From a virus: 40,401 nucleotides of DNA. The stretch covers positions 1 through 40,401 of IMG/VR virus record IMGVR_UViG_3300047408_000110; one strand, 5' to 3'. A program made the translations under genes and the position numbers. Shown in pieces: positions 1,559 through 14,919 of this stretch; within the stretch, counting starts at the first letter, position 1; every line of letters begins with the position of its first letter. The notes beneath the pieces were generated by a model. That model searched no databases. It was not told where the DNA came from and saw nothing but the letters and a program-made list of their open reading frames with translations.

Positions 1559-1608
1559 AAAAAAAGTAGAAAAAAAGACTTGTGCGCTTTTTCGTCGTGT
1601 GCTTAATT
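1559..1608 (+). promoter_or_regulatory. Early promoter, copy 1 (leaderless type)
   Basis: Two A-tracts (1559-1565 and 1570-1576) precede a -35 box TTGTGC (1580-1585), a 17-base spacer and a -10 box TTAATT (1603-1608) with an extended-10 TG two bases upstream. The start codon ATG lies only six bases after the -10 box, at 1615, so transcription should begin at or within the start codon. The same layout occurs at 3731, 5513 and 7843. Confidence 0.7.
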
Positions 1609-1614
1609 CCACTC

Positions 1615-1860
1615 ATGACAATGAATCAGATGACTGCTTCCAGTATCAAAGGCCAAGTTGCGCAGCCTATCCAAGAGCGCAGCGACATCGTCGCTTTCAA
1701 CTTCACTTGGGCGATGACTGGTGGTGCGTGGATTCGTCGCGCCAACAACGACGTCGAGTGGTTGACGTTCGATCGCATCATCGCAGAAGCGTCGCGCCAA
1801 TGGCTCGATCGCGCGATCGCCAAGCAAGGTCAGTTCACTGGCTGCTGGGTCACAGTCTGA
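1615..1860 (+). CDS. Hypothetical early protein, 81 aa, leaderless
   Basis: The chosen ATG at 1615 begins with ATGACA, as do all four genes that follow the repeated promoter; the longer in-frame start at 1582 would lie inside the -35 box. The protein (MTMNQMTASSIKGQ...) is about 81 residues with a Trp-rich centre (TWAMTGGAWIRRANNDVEWL). No family recognised. It is the first gene of its transcription unit and is followed by a hairpin and then the DUF932 gene. Confidence 0.65.
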   Translation: MTMNQMTASSIKGQVAQPIQERSDIVAFNFTWAMTGGAWIRRANNDVEWLTFDRIIAEASRQWLDRAIAKQGQFTGCWVTV

Positions 1861-1873
1861 AACTTTCGAGCAC

Positions 1874-1901
1874 TGGCTGCGTCGCGCAAGTGGCGCAGCC
1901 A
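1874..1901 (+). repeat. Intergenic hairpin
   Basis: TGGCTGCG (1874-1881) is perfectly complementary to CGCAGCCA (1894-1901) with a 12-base loop. It lies just after a stop codon and is followed by an A/C-rich, probably unstructured leader ending in a Shine-Dalgarno-like TTGGAG (1945-1950). The same hairpin-then-A/C-leader layout recurs at 3082, 6656 and 9625. Confidence 0.5.
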
Positions 1902-1961
1902 CGTCGCTCACTAACAACAGAAGCAGCACTGACCAAAAGCTGCATTGGAGAACAAACACAC

Positions 1962-3071
1962 ATGAAGACAGGAAAGACACTGGTCGAGCTGGCAACTGAG
2001 ATTCAGCGCCAGACTGCGGCCAAACGCGACTTCGTCGCATCCACAGAGCGTCTGAGTTACCAGCCAGACGTAGATGGTGATGTGCGATCATCGCTTGGTG
2101 CAATCCGTTTCAAAGCGAATGGCGACGAATTAGTCGTCAGACCAACGCGACACTGCATCAGACAGATTGGCGAACATACGGGCATCCCAGCTCGCTATGT
2201 CGAGAGAATGGCTGCTGGCAACCAAGAGCTGCTGGCGCATAACATCAACCACTGGTTCAAAAAAGAGCCAAGCACGCGAATGCTGCGCACGCTGATCAAT
2301 GGCGACAGCACAGCACGCGCTTTTCTCAGCGATCGCTACCGTCCACTGGACAACAACGATCTGGCTGAGATCGCGCTGCCAGAACTGCAGAAGTCTGGTT
2401 GCCAAGTGATGTCGTGCGAGATCACAGAGACGCGTCTCTACATTCAAGCAGTCACGCCACGAATGGAGTTTGATCTGAACGCGTTCAGACGCAGTGGCAA
2501 GAAGCTGCACGAAGCAGACCCAGTGCAAGCTGGCGTCGTCATCAGCAACAGCGAAGTTGGTCTTGGCACACTGCGTGTCGAGCCATTGCTCTACAAGCTG
2601 TCATGTCTCAATGGCATGATCAGCGCGCAAGTGATCAAGCGACACCACGTTGGTCGTCGCATGGACGCGTTCGCAGAGCTGGACGCTGCAGCAGAATACT
2701 TCACAGACGCGACACGCCAAGCAGACGATCGCGCTTTCTGGATGAAGGTGCGCGACGTGATGATCGGCGTGTTCAACGTCGAGAAGTTCCAGTCGCTGGT
2801 CGAGAAGTTCGCTGCAACTGGTGAAGTGGCGCTTGAGATTGGCGCAAAGAAAAGCGTCGAAGAGATCACCAATCGCTTCAAGCTGAACGAAGGTGAATCT
2901 GACAGCGTGTTGAATCACTTGGTCGAAGGTGGCGACTTGTCGCTCTTTGGTCTGGCGAACGCAGTCACGCGCACGTCGAGCGACGTGGAGTCATACGATC
3001 GCGCGATCGAGCTGGAGCGTGTTGGTGGCGACATCATCGAGCTGCCAGCAACGCTCTGGTCGAAGAACTGA
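1962..3071 (+). CDS. DUF932 family phage/plasmid protein, 369 aa
   Basis: The start at 1962 is chosen because TTGGAG lies 11 bases upstream and the homologous region begins there; the open frame extends upstream without other support. The motif RAFLSDRYRPLDN (residues 119-131), the following (D/E)LAEIALPEL helix and the overall length of about 370 residues are typical of the DUF932 (phage/plasmid-like, TIGR03299) family. The biochemical role of this family is not established; it is common next to phage replication and recombination genes and on plasmids. A stable hairpin follows the stop. Confidence 0.85.
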   Translation: MKTGKTLVELATEIQRQTAAKRDFVASTERLSYQPDVDGDVRSSLGAIRFKANGDELVVRPTRHCIRQIGEHTGIPARYVERMAAGNQELLAHNINHWFKKEPSTRMLRTLINGDSTARAFLSDRYRPLDNNDLAEIALPELQKSGCQVMSCEITETRLYIQAVTPRMEFDLNAFRRSGKKLHEADPVQAGVVISNSEVGLGTLRVEPLLYKLSCLNGMISAQVIKRHHVGRRMDAFAELDAAAEYFTDATRQADDRAFWMKVRDVMIGVFNVEKFQSLVEKFAATGEVALEIGAKKSVEEITNRFKLNEGESDSVLNHLVEGGDLSLFGLANAVTRTSSDVESYDRAIELERVGGDIIELPATLWSKN

Positions 3072-3081
3072 TCGACACTGG

Positions 3082-3118
3082 TGCGCCAAGCTGCCCCCTG
3101 ACACAACAGCTTGGCGCA
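3082..3118 (+). terminator. Strong 12-bp hairpin after the DUF932 gene
   Basis: TGCGCCAAGCTG (3082-3093) pairs perfectly with CAGCTTGGCGCA (3107-3118) around a 13-base loop. It begins 10 bases after the DUF932 stop. No T-run follows; an A/C-rich leader leads to the ATG at 3156. It may reduce readthrough or protect the 3' end of the upstream message. Confidence 0.55.
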
Positions 3119-3155
3119 TCCAGTCGACCAACCACCAACCAGAAAGACACAACAC

Positions 3156-3392
3156 ATGAGCAACATGAGAATCAAGCGAACACATCGCTGGAAAGTGCAG
3201 CGCAAGCCAGATGGCGAATGGCAGCACGCGACGCCAGCACCACACATGAAAGTTGGCAATGCTCGTGGCTTCGCTGCCACGCTGCTGAATCTGCCACTGG
3301 ACGCGATCTGCTTGCTCAATCGCAACGGTCGTGCAGCGCGCTCTGACAAGCGCATTGGCGATCTGCGCAAAGAGTGGTTTGGCAAGCGATGA
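3156..3392 (+). CDS. Small basic hypothetical protein, 78 aa
   Basis: Starts at ATG 3156 after an A/C-rich leader containing AGAAAGA. An in-frame ATG at 3111 lies inside the hairpin and is unlikely. The product (MSNMRIKRTHRWKVQRK...) is strongly basic at both ends with a central hydrophobic helix (GFAATLLNLPLDAICLL). It might bind nucleic acid, but no family is recognised. Its stop overlaps the next start. Confidence 0.6.
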   Translation: MSNMRIKRTHRWKVQRKPDGEWQHATPAPHMKVGNARGFAATLLNLPLDAICLLNRNGRAARSDKRIGDLRKEWFGKR

Positions 3393-3562
3393 ACATACAA
3401 CAAAAAAAGCTGGCAGTGATCGTCGCGATCGACGAGCTGGTCGCAGACGAAACTGACGACAAGAAGTCGACGCTGCGATTGCGATCGCTCGAAGAGATTC
3501 AGTCACACGCAGAGCGAGCGCACGAGAAGCTATGGCAAGAGCTGCTCAAGCAACACAGCTGA
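3389..3562 (+). CDS. Small helical hypothetical protein, 57 aa
   Basis: ATG at 3389 overlaps the preceding TGA. The protein (MNIQQKKLAVIVAIDELVAD...) is predicted largely helical and charged, with heptad-like spacing that could give a short coiled coil. It overlaps the next gene by 31 bases in a different frame. No family recognised. Confidence 0.55.
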   Translation: MNIQQKKLAVIVAIDELVADETDDKKSTLRLRSLEEIQSHAERAHEKLWQELLKQHS

Positions 3563-3711
3563 AGCCAACCAGAGTCTTCGTTCACTGGTGGCAGCATGGC
3601 GAGCGCGACGTCAAGCTGATCGTTGGCAGAGCGCGCGCAGCAAGATTCATTCGCAAGCTGCGCAGCCAGCGCGTGCGAATCATCTGGTGCATCTATCCAG
3701 AGCGCTTCTGA
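3532..3711 (+). CDS. Small basic protein, 59 aa
   Basis: An open frame from ATG 3532 to TGA 3709-3711 encodes MARAAQATQLKPTRVFVHWW... ending RVRIIWCIYPERF. It contains a beta-strand/basic-helix pattern (VKLIVGRARAARFIRKLRSQRVRIIW) and uses the same codon choices as its neighbours, which supports translation despite the overlap with the previous gene. Function unknown; a nucleic-acid-binding role is only a guess from charge. Confidence 0.5.
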   Translation: MARAAQATQLKPTRVFVHWWQHGERDVKLIVGRARAARFIRKLRSQRVRIIWCIYPERF

Positions 3712-3730
3712 ACATGTGTTCAGACCAGCC

Positions 3731-3780
3731 AAAAAAAAGTTGAAAAAAGTGTTGCACACCAGTGTTCTTGTGCGAATTTA
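3731..3780 (+). promoter_or_regulatory. Early promoter, copy 2 (leaderless type)
   Basis: CCAGCC followed by A-tracts (3731-3738 and 3743-3748), -35 TTGCAC (3752-3757), 17-base spacer and -10 AATTTA (3775-3780). The ATG at 3785 is four bases beyond the -10 box, leaving no room for a ribosome binding site in the transcript. Confidence 0.7.
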
Positions 3781-3784
3781 CACC

Positions 3785-4492
3785 ATGACAAACACTGAAA
3801 AAAGCAGCAACAAAGCGACGCATCGTGGCACTTGCCAAGCGTGTGGTCGCGTTCAAGCAGTCTGGCAAGGTTCGATCGCGAAGCATGGCTACACGGTCGA
3901 CTGGGGTCACTTCAATGGCGTGTGCCAAGGTGCGCACGCTCTGCCAATGGAACAGCAGACGACGTTGACAGTGTCGATCATCGCGATCGCCACCAAGTCA
4001 GCAGAGCGCAGCGAGCAGCTGGCAGTTGATCTGGAATCTGGTGCGATCGCGCCAATGTATTTCAAGAGCGTCTACAATCGCGCCAAGTGCAAGAGCGAGA
4101 AAGTCGAAGTCGCGAAAGAGACGTTGATGCCATACGAAGTCGACCAGTGCTTGTCGCTGGCAGTTCACCAAGCCAAGAGCAGAGCGCGTGACGCGCGCTA
4201 CCACGCGAAGCTGTTGACTGAGCTGATGGCTGCACGCTTTGGTCAAGCGCTGATTCCAGTGAAGCTGGACAAGAAAGAGCTGGCAGCTGGCGCGATCGTT
4301 CGCGTTGGTGGCAAGAATGGCATCGACTGCGAAGTGCTTGAGATCAAGCACATGATCGCCAGTGGCTGCGGCCCTTACATGAACGGTCAGCGACTGCCAC
4401 ACGCGATCATGAAGCGCGAAGATGGTCGCACGTTCGCGATGCCAACCAAGACAATTCGCCAGAGCGCCATCGTGAAAGGTGGTGCTCTGTGA
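3785..4492 (+). CDS. Putative zinc-binding hypothetical protein, 235 aa, leaderless
   Basis: The start ATGACA at 3785 directly follows promoter copy 2. The N-terminus has a possible zinc site: C17-x2-C20, H34, H42 and C47. Residues 85-165 form a long charged helical region, and the C-terminal 70 residues contain a small beta-rich domain (AGAIVRVGGKNGIDCEVLEI). The combination resembles phage DNA- or RNA-associated accessory proteins, but no named family is recognised. The stop overlaps a GTG start of the next gene. Confidence 0.7.
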   Translation: MTNTEKSSNKATHRGTCQACGRVQAVWQGSIAKHGYTVDWGHFNGVCQGAHALPMEQQTTLTVSIIAIATKSAERSEQLAVDLESGAIAPMYFKSVYNRAKCKSEKVEVAKETLMPYEVDQCLSLAVHQAKSRARDARYHAKLLTELMAARFGQALIPVKLDKKELAAGAIVRVGGKNGIDCEVLEIKHMIASGCGPYMNGQRLPHAIMKREDGRTFAMPTKTIRQSAIVKGGAL

Positions 4493-4755
4493 TCGCGCGC
4501 ACAGCGTCAATCAACGGCGTCACGCGACCACGCGAGTTCGAGATCGACATCACGACTTTCGAGCGACATGGCTCGACGATGCGCGCCAGCGCTGAAGCCA
4601 GCACGATTGGTCTGAAGCCAAACGAGTGGCCTGACTGGTTCACTGTGCCATCTGCTGCGATGTTCCACACGTTCGTGCTGCACGAGATCGACAAGAATGA
4701 CGCGCGCATCTACAGCGATGGGCGTGGCAACTGGTTCACGATCTTCAACGACTAA
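4489..4755 (+). CDS. Hypothetical protein, 88 aa
   Basis: Likely GTG start at 4489, overlapping the previous TGA (GTGA). The protein contains an N-terminal beta region and a Trp/Phe-rich centre (NEWPDWFTVPSAAMFHTFVLHEID). One of few genes here ending in TAA. No family recognised. Confidence 0.6.
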   Translation: MIARTASINGVTRPREFEIDITTFERHGSTMRASAEASTIGLKPNEWPDWFTVPSAAMFHTFVLHEIDKNDARIYSDGRGNWFTIFND

Positions 4756-4756
4756 C

Positions 4757-5014
4757 ATGAGCGCTCGAAGCATCAGACACGCACCACGCGCGTTCACATC
4801 GCACGAGATCGCTGGCTCTTTCTGTGACGTGTGCCACACCAGTGGCGCGCGCTACAGTGCCAGCGACGAGCAGACGCTCTGCAAGACGCATCGCGCACAG
4901 TTGCGCAAGCGCGTGATCAAGTGCGCCAATGGCAATCGCATTGGCTTCATCACCACGATCACCAAGACCAAGTCGCTTGGCTTCGAGCCAAAGAATCTGG
5001 AGCGTGCATCATGA
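4757..5014 (+). CDS. Small zinc-ribbon-like protein, 85 aa
   Basis: Begins at ATG 4757, one base after the preceding stop. C23-x2-C26 and C42-x2-H45 could bind one zinc ion (zinc ribbon/TRASH-like). The rest is basic and Thr/Lys rich. It lies in a run of small, coupled genes, several with CxxC pairs; function unknown. Confidence 0.6.
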   Translation: MSARSIRHAPRAFTSHEIAGSFCDVCHTSGARYSASDEQTLCKTHRAQLRKRVIKCANGNRIGFITTITKTKSLGFEPKNLERAS

Positions 5015-5229
5015 CTACTGTTGACGATCTCGATGAACGTCAGCTGCGCGAAGCGCTCGATCACTTGCGTGCGCTCGTGCAATACAAGCAAGGCGAATGG
5101 GAGCACGCGCGCGCCATCTGGTCTTTGCTTGGCAGACCAGCACCAATCAACGTGGCGCGCATCGCAGCGCGCTGTGATGATGTCGCAGCTTTGACGATCG
5201 ATGATCTACGTGAAGCGCTGAAGCCATGA
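5011..5229 (+). CDS. Small acidic helical protein, 72 aa
   Basis: ATG at 5011 overlaps the previous TGA. The product (MTTVDDLDERQLREALDHLRAL...) is helical and acidic with no cysteines; length and style match its neighbours. No family recognised. Its stop overlaps the next ATG (ATGA). Confidence 0.6.
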   Translation: MTTVDDLDERQLREALDHLRALVQYKQGEWEHARAIWSLLGRPAPINVARIAARCDDVAALTIDDLREALKP

Positions 5230-5405
5230 GCGACGACGACGAGCACTGCATCAGCTGCCACACCAAGCTTGGCGCTCTGGATGACGACCCAAACGGTGAG
5301 CACAACGCTGTGTGCGCCAGATGCAGAGCTGAAGAAAGCCACGACTTTGATCGCGAGCCAGATGTGACTTTCGATCGATCTGGTGCTCGCATCGACATGC
5401 CATGA
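5226..5405 (+). CDS. Small acidic zinc-ribbon protein, 59 aa
   Basis: ATG 5226 to TGA 5403-5405. Two CxxC knuckles (C8/C11 and C30/C33) form a classic four-cysteine zinc ribbon in a very acidic chain (MSDDDEHCISCHTKLGALDD...). Such proteins often act as small nucleic-acid or protein adaptors, but that is inference. Coupled at both ends by ATGA overlaps. Confidence 0.6.
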   Translation: MSDDDEHCISCHTKLGALDDDPNGEHNAVCARCRAEESHDFDREPDVTFDRSGARIDMP

Positions 5406-5503
5406 GCGAACCAAACTGTGGCTGCTGTGCGTGTGGCTGCTGGCTGATCATTCTGCTGGTGCTGCTCGTGATCGCTGGCGCGATCGCTGGTTTGGTGCTC
5501 TGA
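5402..5503 (+). CDS. 33-aa cysteine-rich single-pass membrane peptide
   Basis: ATG 5402 overlaps the previous TGA and the frame ends at TGA 5501-5503. The peptide begins MSEPNCGCCACGC and continues into one uninterrupted hydrophobic helix (about residues 14-33). Four cysteines in eight residues next to a membrane helix could bind metal or be lipidated. It is the last gene of its unit, immediately before promoter copy 3. Size and topology would also fit a small lysis or inner-membrane inhibitor peptide; no evidence decides. Confidence 0.5.
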   Translation: MSEPNCGCCACGCWLIILLVLLVIAGAIAGLVL

Positions 5504-5512
5504 AAGCCAGCC

Positions 5513-5563
5513 AAAAAAAAGTGAAAAAAAGTGCTTGCGCCACTTTTCCACTCGTGTTCTAGT
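5513..5563 (+). promoter_or_regulatory. Early promoter, copy 3 (leaderless type)
   Basis: CCAGCC plus A-tracts (5513-5520 and 5524-5530), -35 TTGCGC (5535-5540), 17-base spacer and -10 TCTAGT (5558-5563) with an extended TG. The ATG at 5570 is six bases downstream. The spacer CACTTTTCCAC is nearly identical to that of copy 4. Confidence 0.75.
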
Positions 5564-5569
5564 GTTCGC

Positions 5570-6640
5570 ATGACAAACCAAACTGAATCGAAAAGAATCA
5601 CAGCCAAGTTCACTGGACGCTGCACGAAGTGCAATGGCGTCGTGCCGAGTGGCACACAGTGCAACTGGTCAAAAGCAGCTGGCGTCTCGCACATCAGCTG
5701 CCCGTCGCAGTTCTCCAACTATGACGACGTGCGCAACGCAGCAGATCACGTCGAACACGACATTCTGCGCGCTGAAGTCGCCAATGTCTTCGAGACTCGC
5801 AACGACGACAAGAACGTCAGCGTCACTGCTGGCGTGTTCAAAAAAGATGGTCGCATCTATGTGGTCAAACCCAACAAGCTGAAGACTCGCGTCTATGCGA
5901 AAGAGATCATCGAGTCGCCAGCGCGCATGACTGAGAATGGCGCAGTGGCAGACTTCACGACAGTGTATCGCGCTGGCGTCGTGTTCCAGCTGACTGAGAG
6001 CGATCGCTGGAACTTGGCAGACGCCAAAGACTTTCTGACGAAGTTCAGCAAGTGCATCGTCTGTGGTCGCCATCTCAAAGCAGCCAAGTCAGTGGCTGGC
6101 TCGATCGGCCCTGTGTGTGCGAAATACTTCGCGCACAGCCACAGCTGCGACGACAAGCCAGTGACGAAACTGGTCGACGTCAAAGCGCAAGCGTCGATGG
6201 ACACAGAAGACGACGCCAAGCGCGCTGCGATCGCCACAGAGATCGCGATCAGCGACAGTCAAGCTGAAGCAGCCAACGTCGACCCAGCAGACGAGATGCT
6301 GGCATCTGATGCGATCAACAACGCGAAGCTGGTCATGAGCGACGACCAGCGCGCGCTGCTCGTTGAGCTGCAGCGTCTCAACGCGAAGTCACGCGCATGG
6401 GTGGCTGAAGACCCAGCCAATCGCTGGGCTGGCATTCTCACTGAAGACATCGCCTACTGGGCGAAGAGCGACATCACCAGCGTCGCTGATCTCGACGAGA
6501 TGCAAGCAGCTGAAGACGAAAAAGAGCGTCGCAAGGCGAGCTACAACTACGACGACGTGCCAGTGGCGCGCGACGTCGACAACTACTGGGTCGACGACAG
6601 TGGTCGCGCCAGACGCGACGTCGAAGTCGACGTCAGCTGA
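5570..6640 (+). CDS. DUF6011-type zinc protein, 356 aa, leaderless
   Basis: The start ATGACA at 5570 follows promoter copy 3; the longer frame beginning at 5531 would include the -35 box. There is an N-terminal zinc cluster (C18, C21, C31, H41, C44). Later comes CxVCGRxLxxxxSVxxxIGPVC (C162, C165, C183), the hallmark of the DUF6011 family found in many phage early proteins. The C-terminal 170 residues are acidic and helical. DUF6011 has no assigned activity; single-strand DNA or RNA binding is plausible only by analogy with zinc knuckles. Confidence 0.75.
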   Translation: MTNQTESKRITAKFTGRCTKCNGVVPSGTQCNWSKAAGVSHISCPSQFSNYDDVRNAADHVEHDILRAEVANVFETRNDDKNVSVTAGVFKKDGRIYVVKPNKLKTRVYAKEIIESPARMTENGAVADFTTVYRAGVVFQLTESDRWNLADAKDFLTKFSKCIVCGRHLKAAKSVAGSIGPVCAKYFAHSHSCDDKPVTKLVDVKAQASMDTEDDAKRAAIATEIAISDSQAEAANVDPADEMLASDAINNAKLVMSDDQRALLVELQRLNAKSRAWVAEDPANRWAGILTEDIAYWAKSDITSVADLDEMQAAEDEKERRKASYNYDDVPVARDVDNYWVDDSGRARRDVEVDVS

Positions 6641-6655
6641 GCGTTCACAACGATT

Positions 6656-6686
6656 CTGCGCGCAGCGTTCGAACCGTGGCGCGCAG
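6656..6686 (+). repeat. Intergenic hairpin
   Basis: CTGCGCGC (6656-6663) pairs with GCGCGCAG (6679-6686). The loop contains the small palindrome GTTCGAAC. It lies in the 52-base gap between the DUF6011 gene and the next start, repeating the layout seen after the 1860, 3071 and 9610 stops. Confidence 0.5.
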
Positions 6687-6692
6687 CACGAG

Positions 6693-6899
6693 ATGAACAC
6701 CAACAAACCAACAGAGACAGTGGCAGACTTCAAGCATCGCATCGCGATCATCATGCGCGAGCGCGAGACTGGCAAGCGCTACTCGATCATTGGCGCAGCG
6801 CGATCTCACGACTGCGTCGTCAGAAAGACAAAGACCTATGGCAACAACACCAACACCACGACTACCACTGAGCGTCAACATGCGCACGATCGTCACTGA
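6693..6899 (+). CDS. Small hypothetical protein, 68 aa
   Basis: ATG 6693 follows a hairpin by six bases. The N-terminal part (ETVADFKHRIAIIMRERETGKRYSIIGAARSH) looks like a genuine helix-strand fold. The C-terminal 18 residues are Asn/Thr/His rich and low in complexity where the frame overlaps the start of the next gene. Function unknown. Confidence 0.5.
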   Translation: MNTNKPTETVADFKHRIAIIMRERETGKRYSIIGAARSHDCVVRKTKTYGNNTNTTTTTERQHAHDRH

Positions 6900-7080
6900 T
6901 CTGGCTGCTTCCAGCAACATTCTGATCATGGCACGCGATCGCGCACCAGTTGGCAGCGATCTGCACAACTGGCTCGATCGACTTCACGACAAGAACGACG
7001 AGCTGGCGATGCGCATCTGTGGCTACAAGTTCGACGACACTGGCAAGCAAGTCGACACAACACCAGTGAGGTTCGCATGA
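6880..7080 (+). CDS. Small hypothetical protein, 66 aa
   Basis: The ATG at 6880 opens MRTIVTDLAASSNILIMARD...; an alternative in-frame ATG at 6838 would add 14 residues and a longer overlap with the previous gene. Neither has a clear Shine-Dalgarno. The product is helical, with WLDRLHDKNDELAMRICGYKF in its centre. The stop overlaps the next ATG. Confidence 0.55.
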   Translation: MRTIVTDLAASSNILIMARDRAPVGSDLHNWLDRLHDKNDELAMRICGYKFDDTGKQVDTTPVRFA

Positions 7081-7382
7081 CCAGCAGCGGCGACCCATTC
7101 CAAGAGCACATCAGCAGACCAGTCGCTGGCTCGATCACTGGCGCGCAATACAACGAGCGTCTCGATCGTGAGCAACGCGAGCAGCGCGCTGTTCGCCAGA
7201 GCGCGCCAGTCGCGCCAGCTGGCAAGCGTCCACACTGCGAGCAGTGCGATCGCGAGCTGCGCGTCTATCGCTACAGAAAAGCTGGCAGCAAAAAGCTGTA
7301 TGGCACTTATGGCGACAATCGCTTCTGTGGCTTGACGTGTGGCTATCGCTGGGCGCTGCGCCACCAGACCAAGAAGTCATGA
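7077..7382 (+). CDS. Zinc-ribbon hypothetical protein, 101 aa
   Basis: ATG 7077 overlaps TGA 7078-7080. Residues 1-50 are polar and probably flexible. The C-terminal half holds C54-x2-C57 and C84-x3-C88 around a Tyr/Arg-rich strand (RVYRYRKAGSKKLYGTYGDNRFC), a four-cysteine zinc-ribbon arrangement. Likely a small nucleic-acid- or protein-binding adaptor; family not recognised. Confidence 0.6.
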   Translation: MTSSGDPFQEHISRPVAGSITGAQYNERLDREQREQRAVRQSAPVAPAGKRPHCEQCDRELRVYRYRKAGSKKLYGTYGDNRFCGLTCGYRWALRHQTKKS

Positions 7383-7573
7383 TCATGCGCGAGATTCCAG
7401 AACTGTATGCAGTCGCCAGAAAGATCACACTTGACGCTGGCTTCGACTACACTGACCCACGCACTGGCGAGACGACCAAAGCCAAGCGCAAGCGCCAGCC
7501 AGCTGTGGCGAAGCGCGTGCGCGATCGTCTGCGCAAGCTGCGCGACGTGCCAGCACGACGACTCAAGCGATGA
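7379..7573 (+). CDS. Small basic hypothetical protein, 64 aa
   Basis: ATG 7379 overlaps the previous stop. Residues 1-28 form a mixed segment; the C-terminal 35 residues are extremely Lys/Arg rich (KAKRKRQPAVAKRVRDRLRKLR), suggesting nucleic-acid contact. The frame extends upstream only inside the previous gene. The stop overlaps the next start. Confidence 0.55.
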   Translation: MIMREIPELYAVARKITLDAGFDYTDPRTGETTKAKRKRQPAVAKRVRDRLRKLRDVPARRLKR

Positions 7574-7836
7574 AGCGCAAGCGATCAGTGCAGCGATTGG
7601 CAGAGCGTCTGGAGCGCGAGCACGAGCTGCTCGTCGACGTCTCGTCATTCGAGCGCGTTCACGCTGGTCACTGGCAGCGATCGTCTGGTGCGTGGTCGTG
7701 GTGCGCGTATCTGCACGCACCAGAGAATCAAGCGCGCACGATGATTGGCAGTCAATACAACGTGAAGCAGCTGCTGGCTGCGCCAGCGCTTCAGCTCACA
7801 CATTCGATCTGCCAGATCGAAATTGACCCATCTTGA
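7570..7836 (+). CDS. Hypothetical protein, 88 aa
   Basis: ATG 7570 overlaps TGA 7571-7573. Basic N-terminus followed by a Trp/His-rich centre (HAGHWQRSSGAWSWCAYLHA). Last gene before promoter copy 4. No family recognised. Confidence 0.6.
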   Translation: MKRKRSVQRLAERLEREHELLVDVSSFERVHAGHWQRSSGAWSWCAYLHAPENQARTMIGSQYNVKQLLAAPALQLTHSICQIEIDPS

Positions 7837-7842
7837 CCAGCC

Positions 7843-7893
7843 AAAAAAAAGATGAAAAAAGTTGTTGCGCTACTTTTCCACCAGTGCTCTAGT
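7843..7893 (+). promoter_or_regulatory. Early promoter, copy 4 (leaderless type)
   Basis: CCAGCC and A-tracts (7843-7850 and 7855-7860), -35 TTGCGC (7865-7870), 17-base spacer and -10 TCTAGT (7888-7893) with an extended TG. ATG at 7900 is six bases beyond. Of the four copies this one is closest to copy 3. Confidence 0.75.
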
Positions 7894-7899
7894 GTAAGC

Positions 7900-8166
7900 A
7901 TGACAAAAGAAAAGACAGTAATGGGCGCGAGCACAGTGTCGCGCTACCACAACCCGCTGACGATCGCAGCTGACAGCATGAAGCAAGCAATGCAGCTTCG
8001 CGATGGTCTTCGTTCATTCGCAGCAGCCAATCATGGTCAAGTCGAATACGACTGCCACAAGATGGCTGATCGCATGGACGCGATCGCCAAAGAGATTGGC
8101 ATCGCAGCACTAACACTCAAAGCAGCTGGCGCACTCGCGCCAGCTCGCCAGCAGGAGGTCATCTAA
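7900..8166 (+). CDS. Hypothetical early protein, 88 aa, leaderless
   Basis: Begins ATGACA at 7900 directly after promoter copy 4. The protein (MTKEKTVMGASTVSRYHNPL...) is mainly helical with no cysteine cluster. It precedes the GHKL-metalloprotease gene by one base and shares its transcript; the Shine-Dalgarno of that gene (AGGAGG) lies inside its last codons, so the two are translationally linked. Function unknown. Confidence 0.65.
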   Translation: MTKEKTVMGASTVSRYHNPLTIAADSMKQAMQLRDGLRSFAAANHGQVEYDCHKMADRMDAIAKEIGIAALTLKAAGALAPARQQEVI

Positions 8167-8167
8167 C

Positions 8168-9610
8168 ATGGCGACCAAACTTTCAAACTGGTTCGAACTC
8201 GATCGCACTGGTCTGTCGAAGATTCTGCAGCGCAAGGGCATCGAGTTCGCGATCTTCGAGCTGGTGCAGAACGCATGGGACGAGCGTGGAGTCACGCAAG
8301 TCGACGTCGAGCTGCAAGCTGATGGTCAGCGTGGTCGCTGCACACTCACTGTGCGCGACGATGCACCAGATGGCTTCGCTGATCTGCGCCACGCTTACAC
8401 GCTCTTTGCTGAGAGCAAAAAGAAAGACAATCCAGAGCAGCGTGGTCGCTTCAATCTTGGCGAAAAGCTGGTGCTGTCGTTGTGCGACTGGGCGTCAATC
8501 GCGACAACCACTGGCACGATCGTGTTCGGCGCTGGTGGTCGCAGTGTGAAGCAGTCACACAAGACTGATCGTGGCTCGATCTTCGAAGCGTGCATTCGCA
8601 TGACCAAAGCTGAGATGCTCGCAGTGCGCATCGCGTTCGATCAACTGATCGCGCCAGCTGGAATCACAACGACGTTCAATGGCGACGCGCTCGTTGAGCG
8701 TGTGCCAGCGTATCAATTCGAAGCGTCTCTGCCAACAGAGATCGCGAACGAAGATGGCGATCTGCGTCGCACAGCAGTGCGCAAGTGCGTGGTGAACTGC
8801 TACGAAGTGAAGACTGGCGAGACTGCCAGCATCTACGAGATGGGCATACCAGTCGTCGATCACGACTGCGCGTGGCACGTCGACGTGATGCAGAAAGTTC
8901 CGCTGACTCTCGACAGAGAGAACGTCACTGGTCGCTTTCTGAAAGTGCTGCGCACAGCAGTCTTCAATGAGACGCACAAGTCGCTCGACACTGAAGCTGT
9001 CAATCACGCGTGGACACAAGACGCGATCGAGAGTGGCGACGCGAAGCCAGAAGCAGTGGTCGACTACATGACCAAGCGCTTTGGCGACAAGCGCGCCAGC
9101 TATGACCCCAACGACGCTGAAGCCAACAACCAAGCAGTCGCTCATGGCTACACCATCGTGCATGGTGGCATGTTGAGTGGCGCAGCTTGGCAGAACGTCA
9201 AGAGCGCTGATGCGATCGCGCCAGCTGGTCGCTTGTTTCCAACACACAGCGACAACACGATCGATGGCGAGCCAGCAGAAGAGACTGAGAACATGAAGCG
9301 CGTGCGTGGCTATTGCCAGCAGCTCGCAGAACTGCTGATGGGCATCCACGTCACTGTGCGATTCACCAAGCAGCCATCACGCGAGCGCGCTTGCTATGGC
9401 TCGCGCACCATCAGCTTCAACGTGCGCAATCTTGGTGGCGATCGCTGGTTTGATCTCAAGACGAATCGTCTGGAGATCGACGACTTGATCATCCACGAGT
9501 TCGGTCACGAATACGCAGCCAACCATCTCAGCGAAGCTTACAACGACGCGCTGTCGCGTCTCGCTGCCAAAGCGATGGCGCTTGGCAGAGCTGGAAAGTT
9601 GCCAGCATGA
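8168..9610 (+). CDS. GHKL-type ATPase with C-terminal HEXXH motif, 480 aa
   Basis: A strong AGGAGG (8153-8158) precedes the ATG. N-terminal Bergerat-fold motifs are in order: N-box ELVQNAWDE (31-39), a G1-like DDAPDGF (64-70) and G2 GRFNLGEK (93-100), as in HSP90/gyrase/MutL ATPases. The C-terminal part (about 390-480) has a zinc metalloprotease signature, IIHEFGHE with H443 and H447; H453 or E456 could be the third ligand. The middle 250 residues are not recognised. ATP binding is likely. Proteolysis is inferred from one motif only, and HEXXH may be non-catalytic. The family is seen as unnamed ATP-binding protein in other phages. Possible roles are a chaperone or a host-directed protease. 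Confidence 0.75.
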   Translation: MATKLSNWFELDRTGLSKILQRKGIEFAIFELVQNAWDERGVTQVDVELQADGQRGRCTLTVRDDAPDGFADLRHAYTLFAESKKKDNPEQRGRFNLGEKLVLSLCDWASIATTTGTIVFGAGGRSVKQSHKTDRGSIFEACIRMTKAEMLAVRIAFDQLIAPAGITTTFNGDALVERVPAYQFEASLPTEIANEDGDLRRTAVRKCVVNCYEVKTGETASIYEMGIPVVDHDCAWHVDVMQKVPLTLDRENVTGRFLKVLRTAVFNETHKSLDTEAVNHAWTQDAIESGDAKPEAVVDYMTKRFGDKRASYDPNDAEANNQAVAHGYTIVHGGMLSGAAWQNVKSADAIAPAGRLFPTHSDNTIDGEPAEETENMKRVRGYCQQLAELLMGIHVTVRFTKQPSRERACYGSRTISFNVRNLGGDRWFDLKTNRLEIDDLIIHEFGHEYAANHLSEAYNDALSRLAAKAMALGRAGKLPA

Positions 9611-10218: not shown

Positions 10219-10353
10219 ATGATCACCAACGACAACATGAATCTGTGGCGCAAGATCGCACGCTGGCTGCGACGACGCAGACCAACCACGATGCTGGCTG
10301 ATTACATCAACCACTTCAACGCACCAAGAATCTACATGAACCACGAACATTGA
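10219..10353 (+). CDS. Small basic peptide, 44 aa
   Basis: ATG 10219, six bases after the previous stop, to TGA 10351-10353. It encodes MITNDNMNLWRKIARWLRRRR... with an amphipathic basic helix and a His/Asn-rich tail. Codon use fits the operon. The last two bases of the stop codon are the first two of the 15-bp inverted repeat. Real coding is plausible but unproven. Confidence 0.4.
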   Translation: MITNDNMNLWRKIARWLRRRRPTTMLADYINHFNAPRIYMNHEH

Positions 10354-10482
10354 AGATGACGTCGAGCCATAGAGCCATCGCGAAAGCGAAAGCAAATTGG
10401 AGGGAGACTCCGGCCACCGGCCTTGCTGCACAGTTCATCTGCGCAGATTCAGCTTGTCATTGAACACTCGACGTCATCTTCA
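10351..10482. repeat. 15-bp inverted repeat enclosing a hairpin-rich non-coding stretch
   Basis: GAAGATGACGTCGAG (10352-10366) is the exact reverse complement of 10467-10481; an outer T-A pair (10351/10482) extends it. The 100-base interval contains a TCGC-GAAA-GCGA tetraloop hairpin (10378-10389), GGAG/CTCC (10399-10402 with 10408-10411) and GGCC-ACC-GGCC (10412-10422). It sits between convergent operons; the right arm is also the end of the leftward nuclease gene. GGCC and CCGG are otherwise rare in this genome, so the stretch is under different constraints. Candidate structured RNA, bidirectional terminator without T-runs, or replication signal. Confidence 0.6.
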
Positions 10483-11002
10483 GCGCTCGTGCTCCAGCGC
10501 GCATCTCGCGACACAGCTTGGCTGATCGTCGCAGTTGATCAACTGATCGCAGCGCTGACCACGGGACTGACCAGCATGGCTTTTCCATGTGCATCGAGTC
10601 GAGCCACTCGCTGACTTGCGCGATCAGCGCGCCTTCAATCCAGCCAAGCATGAACACTCGTGGCAGCTGCACTTCTGTGAAGACGTAGATGAAGCGCGCG
10701 TCGACTTTGTCGATCAGTGGACTGTAGCGATTCACTGGTCGCGCTTTCACATCGACCAGTCGAGCGCTTGGCAATTTCAGATCGCCACTGTCGTGGTCGC
10801 TGCCAAGTCGTGGTCGCCAGTCCACTTCGAGAAACTTCGCAGCGCCACACTCACCGTTGCAGCCAATCATCTCGCGCTCGACGCTGTTGGTGAATCGCGA
10901 CTGCCAGCGATTGCGTCTGCCAAACTCGAAGCGCGCTGCTGCTTGCTCTGCGCACAGCTGCTGCTCGCGCGCGTCCAGCTCAACGAATGGTCGCGCGATC
11001 AT
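10457..11002 (-). CDS. Putative PD-(D/E)XK nuclease, 181 aa
   Basis: The ATG at 11002 (MIARPFVELDAREQQLC...) is preferred to the longer frame from 11077, which would overlap the upstream gene by almost 100 bases. The core CGAAKFLEVDWRPRL...GDLKL...RLVDVKAR, followed by the hydrophobic strand RFIYVFTEV and GWIEGALI, has the order of phage PD-(D/E)XK nucleases: an Asp in GDLKL and DVK as the catalytic half-motif. DNA cleavage is inferred. It is the last gene of the leftward operon and its 3' end forms one arm of the 15-bp inverted repeat. Confidence 0.6.
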   Translation of the reverse strand: MIARPFVELDAREQQLCAEQAAARFEFGRRNRWQSRFTNSVEREMIGCNGECGAAKFLEVDWRPRLGSDHDSGDLKLPSARLVDVKARPVNRYSPLIDKVDARFIYVFTEVQLPRVFMLGWIEGALIAQVSEWLDSMHMEKPCWSVPWSALRSVDQLRRSAKLCREMRAGARALKMTSSVQ

Positions 11003-11468
11003 CTGGCAAAGCTTCAGACTTCCAGCAGTTGCACTTTCGATCGAACTGACCAAGCACGAGATGGCAACCTTTGCCATGTGGTCGTGACTCGATCACTTTG
11101 CGCAGTCGCGTGATCTCAGCCAGCGCGTCTTCGTTGGCGAACACTTCGATCAGCGTCTTGCCAGCTGGTCGCTGTGGCGCGCTCTTCAGCGCGTCGCGAC
11201 CAATGCGCTCCAGCTCTGGGTCGAGCCAGTCGCGCTTCGCTGGCAGCTCAGCCAGAATGCGCGTGGCGAAGTGCTCCAGTTGCTTGCAGTGATCTGGTCG
11301 CGTCATCAGCTTGCGCGAGCCACGCAGCGCAGCTGTCACGAAGTCATCGACGACAGACGACATCGCTTTGGCTTCAGAGCGCAGCACGCGTCGCCATTCC
11401 AGTGGCATGTCAGCAGCGAGTCGATTCAAGCGATCGCGCACAATCTTTGGCAGTTGGTCTAGTCTCAT
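10980..11468 (-). CDS. Hypothetical protein, 162 aa
   Basis: Starts at ATG 11468, in an ATGA overlap with a small upstream frame; the start codon itself is part of the repeated TGAGACT motif. The product is largely helical and basic. Its last 25 residues hold GCHLVLGQFDRKCNCW, a Cys/His cluster that might bind metal. No family recognised. It overlaps the nuclease gene by 23 bases. Confidence 0.65.
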   Translation of the reverse strand: MRLDQLPKIVRDRLNRLAADMPLEWRRVLRSEAKAMSSVVDDFVTAALRGSRKLMTRPDHCKQLEHFATRILAELPAKRDWLDPELERIGRDALKSAPQRPAGKTLIEVFANEDALAEITRLRKVIESRPHGKGCHLVLGQFDRKCNCWKSEALPDDRATIR

Positions 11469-11635
11469 AAGTCAGTCTCAGTGGTAGTCTCAGTCAGTCT
11501 CGTTGGTGGTTTCTCGTCTCTGAGCGCGTAAGTCTCAAAAGAGGGAGCGCCCCAGCGCGGAAGTGTCTTTTGAGATTGGAGCGCTGGCACAGAGCGATCG
11601 TTGGTTGCTTGCTGATGCGTCGCTGCGCTCCGCAT
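11465..11635 (-). CDS. Possible leaderless small gene, 56 aa (low confidence)
   Basis: A frame from ATG 11635 to TGA 11465-11467 ends in an ATGA overlap with the next gene and begins seven bases after a -10-like box, as in the leaderless early genes. Against it: codon use departs from the local style (CGG, CCC, CCG), the tail is low complexity (TETTTETDL), and the same DNA carries inverted and direct repeats. It may be a leader peptide gene or only a structured 5' leader. Confidence 0.3.
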   Translation of the reverse strand: MRSAATHQQATNDRSVPALQSQKTLPRWGAPSFETYALRDEKPPTRLTETTTETDL

Positions 11636-11642
11636 CAGGTAG

Positions 11643-11690
11643 TAAATTCGCAAACTTTTTGTCTTGACCATCACTTTTTTGGCTGGTTAA
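11643..11690 (-). promoter_or_regulatory. Promoter for the terminal leftward genes
   Basis: On the minus strand, CCAGCC-AAAAAA (as in the early promoters) is followed by TGGTCA as a possible -35, a 17-base gap and AATTTA (complement of 11643-11648) in the context TTTGCGAATTTAC, which shares TGCGAATTTAC with early promoter copy 2. An ATG lies seven bases downstream at 11635. Confidence 0.45.
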
Positions 11691-11774
11691 ACTTTGAGCG
11701 CTCGCAACGCTACGATCTCAAAAGAGCTTCGCTCGTCTGTGACGTAAACTTTTGAGACCTTCGCGCCGCAGCGC

Positions 11775-12992
11775 TCAAGAGTTCGCGATCTCTGGTGCTC
11801 CAATCATTGTCAGCAGCTTCGCGTTCGATCGCACGTCGACGACCAGATGAATGCGATCGCTGTCGCCACCATTGATCGCTTGGTGTGGTTTGCGCGTGTC
11901 GAGATACCAAGCTTCGCCCATCTTCATGTTCGTCTCGCTGGCGCAGCCATCGCAGTTCCACGTCGTGAAGATCACACGATCGTTGGTCGCCACTGGAACG
12001 TGGATGCGCAGAAACTGATCAGCGCGCGTGCCAGTCTCTTTGTCGACTTGGTCTGTGTGGCGCTGCAGTTCGCCACCAGCTGGCGCAAGCTTCATGAAGC
12101 GCACGCGCTGAATCTGCGTGTCGACGTCGTCACACAGCTGCGCGCACAGTGGCTTCACGCCAGCGAAGTCGTCAACAAGCTGCGTCCACTGCAGCTGCCA
12201 GCTCTTGCGCGAGTTCTCCACTTGCCACTTCTCTGGCATCTCAGCTGGCTTGAGAATGCACGTTGGGTCGCTGCTGAAACCACGCAGCGCGAGCGCTGAC
12301 CAGCTCTTGCTCTTGTTGTAATTCGAATAGTGATTGGCGAAGTTGAGCGTGCCAACACCATTCGCGATCGCGCGCATCTCGCTTGTCATGAGCGCGTCGC
12401 TGATTGGCAGCCGCAGTCGCTCGATCGTGAGCAGCTCTGATGGCTGCACAGGGAACTTGCGCAGACGCAGCGCGTCGCCAGCGAACAGACCAACTGTGCA
12501 TGGCTTGAAGTAGACGCCAATGATCTCAGCGAAGCTGGTAAACTTCACGCCAACTTTCTGAAAGCCCAGCTCGAAAGCGAACAGCGTGCTGGCAGTGTCT
12601 TCTTCAAAGACGTGCAGCCAGATGTCGTGCGATCGCGCGTGCTGCTTGATCGCTTCGCGCAGATTGAAGCGACCAGCATCGCTTGTCCAGATCGCGTGCT
12701 TGATCGTGAGATCGCCAATGTGCTTGTGCGCGATCGCCACGTCTTGGAACATCGTGATTGGCGTGACGCGATTGGCGCGCTTGTGCCAGTAGCTTGCGCC
12801 ATCGAGTTCGACCAGCTCGTGCTTGTGAATCGCTTCAGCGATGTTGTTCTTTTTGAACTGCGCGAATGGCGACAGCGCAAAGCTGTTGTGTGGGCCGTAT
12901 CGTTCAGCGATCGCTCTGAGTCGCGCCAGCGCGATGCCGTGTTGCCACGGTTTCATCTCGTCGTGTTGTTCTGTGGTGGTGGTTGTGGTCAT
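11775..12992 (-). CDS. GNAT-like domain fused to aspartyl/asparaginyl hydroxylase-like 2-oxoglutarate dioxygenase, 405 aa
   Basis: The C-terminal half has the 2OG-Fe(II) facial triad in the Asp/Asn beta-hydroxylase style: RHTD (H312, D314), a distal H370 in DTRKPHQAINGG and R380 for 2-oxoglutarate. Residues 50-163 resemble a GNAT fold, with DTASTLFAFELGFQKVG reminiscent of the final acetyltransferase helix/strand, though the acetyl-CoA loop is not obvious. The gene overlaps the helicase stop (ATGA), so it is expressed with replication functions. This suggests modification of DNA, nucleotides or a replication/host protein; the substrate is unknown. Start: ATG 12992, followed by a run of Thr codons. 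Confidence 0.7.
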   Translation of the reverse strand: MTTTTTTEQHDEMKPWQHGIALARLRAIAERYGPHNSFALSPFAQFKKNNIAEAIHKHELVELDGASYWHKRANRVTPITMFQDVAIAHKHIGDLTIKHAIWTSDAGRFNLREAIKQHARSHDIWLHVFEEDTASTLFAFELGFQKVGVKFTSFAEIIGVYFKPCTVGLFAGDALRLRKFPVQPSELLTIERLRLPISDALMTSEMRAIANGVGTLNFANHYSNYNKSKSWSALALRGFSSDPTCILKPAEMPEKWQVENSRKSWQLQWTQLVDDFAGVKPLCAQLCDDVDTQIQRVRFMKLAPAGGELQRHTDQVDKETGTRADQFLRIHVPVATNDRVIFTTWNCDGCASETNMKMGEAWYLDTRKPHQAINGGDSDRIHLVVDVRSNAKLLTMIGAPEIANS

Positions 12993-14803: not shown

Positions 14804-14862
14804 TGAAAGATTGCGCTGTGCTGAACATTGAACGCTGCAAGATGCGCTCGTGGACGTGTGGC

Positions 14863-14894
14863 GCGCAAGCGCTTTTTTCCACTTTTCTTTTTCA
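14863..14894 (-). promoter_or_regulatory. Minus-strand relative of the early promoter box
   Basis: Reading leftward, A-rich blocks are followed by GTGGAAAAAAGCGCTTGCGC (14882-14863), which matches the upstream half of early promoter copy 3 at nearly every position. The -35 would be TTGCGC (14868-14863). The -10 17 bases on is GCATCT (14845-14840), a poor match. It would drive the helicase-dioxygenase operon through the structured leader. Confidence 0.45.
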
Positions 14895-14919
14895 ACACTG
14901 TTCACACCTTATTCACAGC

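Follow-up and report, generated by a model that had tools for sequence, protein, structure and literature searches.

Phased A-tract promoters that place ATG at the predicted transcription start: candidate leaderless genes in a group of uncultured contractile-tailed phages

The window analysed here is a stretch of 40,401 bases corresponding to the complete IMG/VR record IMGVR_UViG_3300047408_000110, a record not marked complete, and it encodes a myovirus whose tail sheath, tape measure, baseplate and endolysin genes all lie on the minus strand. The plus strand of its first 10 kilobases (kb) carries small genes, mostly without database matches, and among them four copies of a promoter-like box, each standing just ahead of an ATG (Table 1). 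We consider it likely, from comparative sequence evidence, that these boxes and their counterparts in related uncultured contractile-tailed phages are strong promoters with an UP element, from which the gene opening each unit would be transcribed as a leaderless messenger RNA (mRNA); the exact +1 and the leaderless mode of translation are inferred. The phage-wide regulon proposed in a first-pass annotation of this DNA did not hold, as only 4 of the ~61 genes predicted in the window lie behind a box, and leaderless expression probably concerns a handful of genes per genome.

Architecture and conservation of the boxes

When CCAGCCAAAAAAAAGNNGAAAAAA was sought with up to 3 mismatches, it occurred on the plus strand at 1552, 3725, 5507 and 7837 only, and never in 100 shuffles. 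The annotation was thus right about four copies with phased A-tracts and TTGYRC, as it was in noting that the four genes behind them all start with ATGACA. Counted from the A of the ATG (1615, 3785, 5570 and 7900), the A-tracts occupy -57 to -37, with centres 11, 11, 10.5 and 11 base pairs (bp) apart in copies 1 to 4, which is where an UP element has its A/T tracts (about -60 to -40, in helical phase); TTGYRC begins at -35, -33, -35 and -35. On the -10 side, a TGn or TGTGC is usually followed by the hexamer, TCTAGT in copies 3 and 4 being a weak one. A spacer of exactly 17 bases followed by an extended -10 had been proposed for every copy, and this stands for copies 1, 3 and 4; copy 2 is better read with 16 nucleotides (nt), GAATTT and 5 nt to the ATG than with 17 and AATTTA, because the relatives align there as TGTGC followed by GATATT, GATTGT or GAAAGT.

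The annotation would have been contradicted by absence of the boxes from related genomes, and relatives do carry them, with the ATG kept at 5-7 nt. In 25 related records (denoted by G numbers), a search for paired A-tracts with a TTG after them succeeded in six (G001, G002, G006, G008, G010 and G011), mostly directly 5' of ATGs, and the backwards pattern gave almost nothing. A weight matrix made of the -35 and the extended -10, with no ATG included, also picks up sites with other upstream sequence, such as AAAAATATTTTGATTTATTTTC in G001 and G002, phages that are near-identical in this region and carry AAAAATATTTT-like versions of the UP element. At a score of at least 17.5 and with an ATG at 5-7 nt, this matrix finds 4 sites in the window, 9 in G001, 5 in G002, 6 in G008, 4 in G010 and 5 in G011; G005 and G006 have a few look-alike sites, and the distant relatives (G003-G005, G007, G009 and G012-G025) almost none. 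Across sites, TTG is invariant in the -35, whose second half is YRC and not the ACA of TTGACA (the host's own consensus may differ); the spacer is 16 or 17 in nearly all, within the 16-18 bp of sigma70-type promoters; and position 6 of the -10 is T in all 31 sites counted, position 2 being A in 25 of them. The box also occurs in other myovirus contigs, in most of which the sheath is 70-81% identical to that of the window.

The placement of the ATG withstood two tests against chance. In a leave-one-group-out analysis, where the model without ATG was trained on the remaining phage groups and scanned on the omitted one, 30 of 40 matches had an ATG 5-7 nt past the -10, a position at which the start codon would coincide with +1, as against 0 of 6 matches in reversed DNA. 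Among 2.9 million viral contigs, a strict pattern requiring ATGA after 5-7 nt was found at 8 sites in 6 contigs, two of them new (G026 and G027), whereas the control with ATGA at 13-15 nt gave only 2 sites, both already found. The new contigs hold 4 (G026) and 3 (G027) further promoter-ATG pairs at 5-7 nt; the sheath of G027 is 70% identical to that of the window, and none was seen in the 36 kb of G026. Within the viral collection scanned, the strict pattern is confined to this phage group. A cruder probe, the exact 15-mer CCAGCCAAAAAAAAG, returned 76 unrelated single matches in viral contigs and was set aside as chance.

The start codons behind the boxes have a signature of their own. C stands at -1 in 33 of 35 box-led starts and in 111 of 280 other ATG starts; nucleotides 4-33 contain 46% A, compared with 32% in the others (p 5e-10); and the start of box-led genes folds more weakly (-1.35 versus -3.32 kcal/mol, p 3e-5). 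A-rich, weakly folded first codons would suit initiation at a bare 5' end. Elsewhere in the window phage, Shine-Dalgarno (SD) words mark 16 of 61 starts as against 1.7% of all ATGs, a comparison in which the gene caller had given SD words a small bonus.

These features would fit the following scheme. The box would be a strong sigma70-type promoter, with phased A-tracts as an UP element for the alpha C-terminal domain of RNA polymerase, a -35 of the form CTTGYRC and, after a spacer of 16-17 bp, an extended -10 (TGTGC and then NAWNNT). Since sigma70-type transcription starts about 6-7 nt after the -10, a discriminator fixed at 5-7 nt with C right before the ATG puts the predicted +1 on the A of the ATG. 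The mRNA of the first gene in each unit would then be leaderless and have an A-rich 5' end of weak structure, and 70S or 30S ribosomes would presumably bind its 5' AUG; for the genes behind it, SD words or overlaps of stop and start codons would serve. What the sequences themselves show is how the promoter is built, that it is conserved, that the ATG stays at a fixed distance and that other starts carry SD words, and this lends strong support to the core claim of the annotation, that the ATG lies at the transcription start.

Alternative readings

Several points weigh against leaderless promoters. A generic promoter scan of the window did not report the four boxes because of their divergent hexamers: neither TTGYRC nor TCTAGT comes close to the E. 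coli consensus, which may not be that of the host. CA repeats, a known though not essential enhancer for leaderless mRNAs (PMC9031893), are not enriched after the start codon (3.35 versus 3.0 CA dinucleotides per 30 nt, p 0.17). Selection of the 35 sites for the composition tests rested on ATG spacing, and some of them are near-identical pairs from G001 and G002, which limits their independence. Finally, sequence does not place +1 to the single base and the distance from -10 to ATG itself varies over 5-7 nt, which leaves room for true promoters that start a few bases further upstream and produce near-leaderless mRNAs, with leaders of 1-6 nt, too short for an SD word. A second class of sites, described below, would give just such leaders. 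At the boxes, however, 5-6 nt is the commonest spacing and the base before the A is almost always C, as expected of a pyrimidine-purine start at that A, and we regard short leaders as unlikely. That translation begins instead at an upstream in-frame codon (ATG 7852, GTG 5531 or GTG 1582), the box ATG being internal, is hardly credible. Reading frames are indeed open 5' of the ATG at several sites, and a naive gene caller chose 1582 and 3716; but these codons would fall within the promoter, and among the 29 sites listed the ATG takes each of the three possible frames with respect to the -35, because the promoter-to-ATG length shifts by single bases in spacer and discriminator, and an in-frame stop lies 9-12 nt 5' of the ATG at G010 14671, G011 7558 and G002 33512. 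Orthologues behind different promoters align from residues 1-7, and the orthologues of the G010 14671 product match it at 87-90% identity from residue 1 on. Frames, stops and alignments thus argue together for the box ATG as the true start.

Who reads the boxes is a separate matter. The motif is long and specific and, as said, restricted to one phage group, as might be expected if it were recognised by an RNA polymerase that the phage encodes or carries in its virion, or by a sigma-like factor of the phage. Yet T7-type RNA polymerase (PF00940) and sigma70 region 2 (PF04542) had no match in ten phages, with the window and several relatives being fragments and multisubunit phage polymerases not searched; the T7 control and the sigma controls were found. 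An UP element, a -35 and an extended -10 at canonical spacing are moreover the architecture of sigma70 promoters, and we hold a phage reader to be quite improbable. With no such polymerase or sigma factor detected and with an architecture of this kind, the host RNA polymerase is the simplest and likely reader. The boxes might also be operator or activator sites of a phage regulator that set gene position only indirectly: CTTGYGCAC at the -35 and CTTGTGC at the extended -10 are alike, forming a direct repeat 16 bp apart and in part an inverted one, and conservation in both exceeds what a sigma factor needs. The match within sites is, however, not above that of shuffled sites (p 0.85 inverted, p 0.30 direct), a spacer alternating between 16 and 17 bp suits promoters better than dimeric operators, and an operator alone does not explain the fixed ATG distance. 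This makes operators in place of promoters very improbable, and an additional regulator acting on top of the promoter is possible. As for the ribosome, a host in which leaderless genes are common is possible. Such genes make up ~13% in three Acidobacteria examined and more in Actinobacteria and Deinococcus-Thermus (PMC3160421), figures that are not evidence for any of those phyla as host.

Genes, other sites and genomic context

The genes led by the boxes are compared in Table 1 with leadered genes of the same units. For the first gene of unit 3, the orthologues in G008 and G011 (59-60% identity) likewise stand behind the promoter, and the alignment runs from residue 4-6. The units may be early, to judge by the position and type of their genes. 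Coupling of the internal genes, which the annotation attributed to ATGA overlaps, is borne out in part: ATGA or GTGA overlaps occur at 4489/4492, 5011/5014, 5226/5229, 7077/7080 and 7379/7382, but the genes at 1962, 3156 and 8168 begin after gaps, with clear SD words at 1962 and 8168. SD-like words are strongly depleted across the window (GAGG 13 versus 391 expected, AGGA 16 versus 306, both strands counted). The 480-residue product of 8168-9610 combines a weak GHKL ATPase match with an HExxH-like motif (IIHEFGHEYAANH, seen by eye) near its C-terminus, an unusual pairing.

Table 1. Coordinates of boxes and associated genes in the window
Feature	Position	Strand	Description
Copy 1 UP-like element	1559..1576	+	Two A7 tracts, centres 11 bp apart, -56 to -39 from A of ATG
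Copy 1 core promoter	1580..1614	+	TTGTGC 1580-1585, 17 nt ending TGTGC, -10 TTAATT 1603-1608, discriminator CCACTC
Unit 1 first gene	1615..1860	+	81 amino acids, ATGACA start, no family match, predicted leaderless
Unit 1 second gene	1962..3071	+	PHROG 1362 / DUF932-like; SD word TTGGAG ahead; leadered contrast to first gene
Copy 2 UP-like element	3731..3748	+	A8 and A6 tracts, centres 11 bp apart
Copy 2 core promoter	3752..3784	+	TTGCAC 3752-3757, 16 nt ending TGTGC, -10 GAATTT 3774-3779, discriminator ACACC
Unit 2 first gene	3785..4492	+	235 amino acids, PHROG 17208; 52% identity to product of predicted leaderless gene in G008
Copy 3 UP-like element	5513..5530	+	A8 and A7 tracts, centres 10.5 bp apart
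Copy 3 core promoter	5535..5569	+	TTGCGC 5535-5540, 17 nt, -10 TCTAGT 5558-5563 after GTGT, discriminator GTTCGC
Unit 3 first gene	5570..6640	+	356 amino acids, DUF6011 motif
Copy 4 UP-like element	7843..7860	+	A8 and A6 tracts, centres 11 bp apart
Copy 4 core promoter	7865..7899	+	TTGCGC 7865-7870, 17 nt ending AGTGC, -10 TCTAGT 7888-7893, discriminator GTAAGC
Unit 4 first gene	7900..8166	+	88 amino acids, no family match; in-frame ATG 7852 inside A-tract region is a rival start
Unit 4 second gene	8168..9610	+	AGGAGG ahead; leadered contrast to first gene
A-tract and CTTGCGC box	14832..14911	-	Poor -10, score 13.2; ATG ~10-12 nt after -10 opens a 36-codon frame only

Two further sets of boxes had been put forward as matching, and although both exist on the minus strand, neither belongs to the candidate leaderless class. 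The box at 14.88 kb was rejected for its poor -10 and the lack of an ATG at 5-7 nt, and those at 11.68 kb for having one A-tract, no -35 at a usable distance and no ATG at the right one. A second promoter-like class was seen on the minus strand at G010 52205, G026 5901 and G027 40463, consisting of an A-rich or T-rich tract, CTTGCGCAC and CAAGCTCGC, with 8-10 nt between CAAGCT and a downstream ATGAAG; a similar stretch lies upstream in all three phages.

The window also encodes a DnaB-like helicase, an exonuclease, RecT and, at 11775-12992 on the minus strand, a domain like aspartyl/asparaginyl beta-hydroxylase (PF05118, E value 7.5e-10), here in a phage. At 10335-10500, where plus- and minus-strand genes converge, an inverted repeat (GAAGATGACGTCGAG ... 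CTCGACGTCATCTTC) may be a terminator acting in both directions or else a structured RNA; it has no Rfam match, and Rfam and transfer RNA scans of the window found nothing. The gene-poor stretch 11462-11760 has TCTCAAAAG...CTTTTGAGA hairpins and repeated GAGACTGACTGAGAC ahead of a minus-strand gene. In base composition, the window has GCGATCGC in 84 copies versus ~2 expected, TA at 0.21 and GG/CC at 0.45 of expectation genome-wide (both strands counted), and no GTAC versus 306 expected. GTAC is nearly absent (0-6) from G001-G013, G017, G018, G020-G022 and G024-G027 as well, but not from G014, G015, G016, G019 and G023, and this probably reflects a GTAC restriction system common to the hosts.

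A megablast of the window against a phage database gave no match and no close relative, and tail-sheath proteins 60-81% identical to its own occur in many viral contigs. A search of genome contigs for a prophage sheath returned only 36-42% matches, in metagenome-assembled genomes of Synergistaceae and Mucispirillum, which are uninformative as to the host; phage-database relatives of the sheath, the endolysin and the early genes led to unrelated hosts.

Relation to known leaderless systems

On sequence, the boxes belong to the general kind of phage leaderless promoters with an extended -10. The leaderless set of the Thermus phage phiYS40, reportedly described by Sevostyanova et al. in 2007, is said to be middle and late and to have only a -10-like element, whereas the sites found here have an UP element, a -35 and an extended -10 and precede clusters of small genes that look early; these phages are not known to be related. 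The likeness lies in a phage promoter set whose extended -10 adjoins the start codon, which makes the mRNAs leaderless. In phiYS40 most of the middle and late mRNAs lack a leader (PMC3594737), and PMC4842269, which like PMC3594737 cites the 2007 study, reports a TGnTA extended -10 at leaderless phage genes. In Deinococcus-Thermus, -10 regions adjoin open reading frames host-wide, in about one third of Deinococcus radiodurans genes (PMC12340547), as opposed to few sites per phage, with full promoters, in the present case. The classic phage gene translated from a 5'-terminal AUG, lambda cI (PMC3160421, PMC9031893), is a single repressor gene and not a repeated promoter family. The leaderless transcripts of Bradyrhizobium japonicum share the TGnTA extended -10 upstream of their starts (PMC4842269), but they come from chromosomal genes and were mapped by RNA sequencing, with no UP element described in the passages on them. 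What would be new here is a repeated full promoter with an UP element, a fixed ATG spacing across a phage group and placement before small-gene clusters.

For start-site annotation the boxes have a practical bearing, as in two of four cases a simple gene caller appears to have put the gene start wrongly upstream. If transcript mapping agrees, they would form a conserved and compact family of ~40 natural leaderless promoters in eight phages, recognised from sequence alone. Such a family would show a phage group tying the genes that it probably expresses first to leaderless translation and leaving others SD-led, which would bear on how phages compete for ribosomes. A tentative extension is that an uncultured, soil-type phage lineage reserves for its early programme a strong promoter in which +1 and start codon are always fused. 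Its first proteins would thereby bypass SD initiation, perhaps at or before the time when the phage modifies the ribosomes or initiation factors of its host. Such an early regulon, leaderless and driven by promoters with an UP element, a -35 and an extended -10, would, if true, be a strategy distinct from the late leaderless set of phiYS40.

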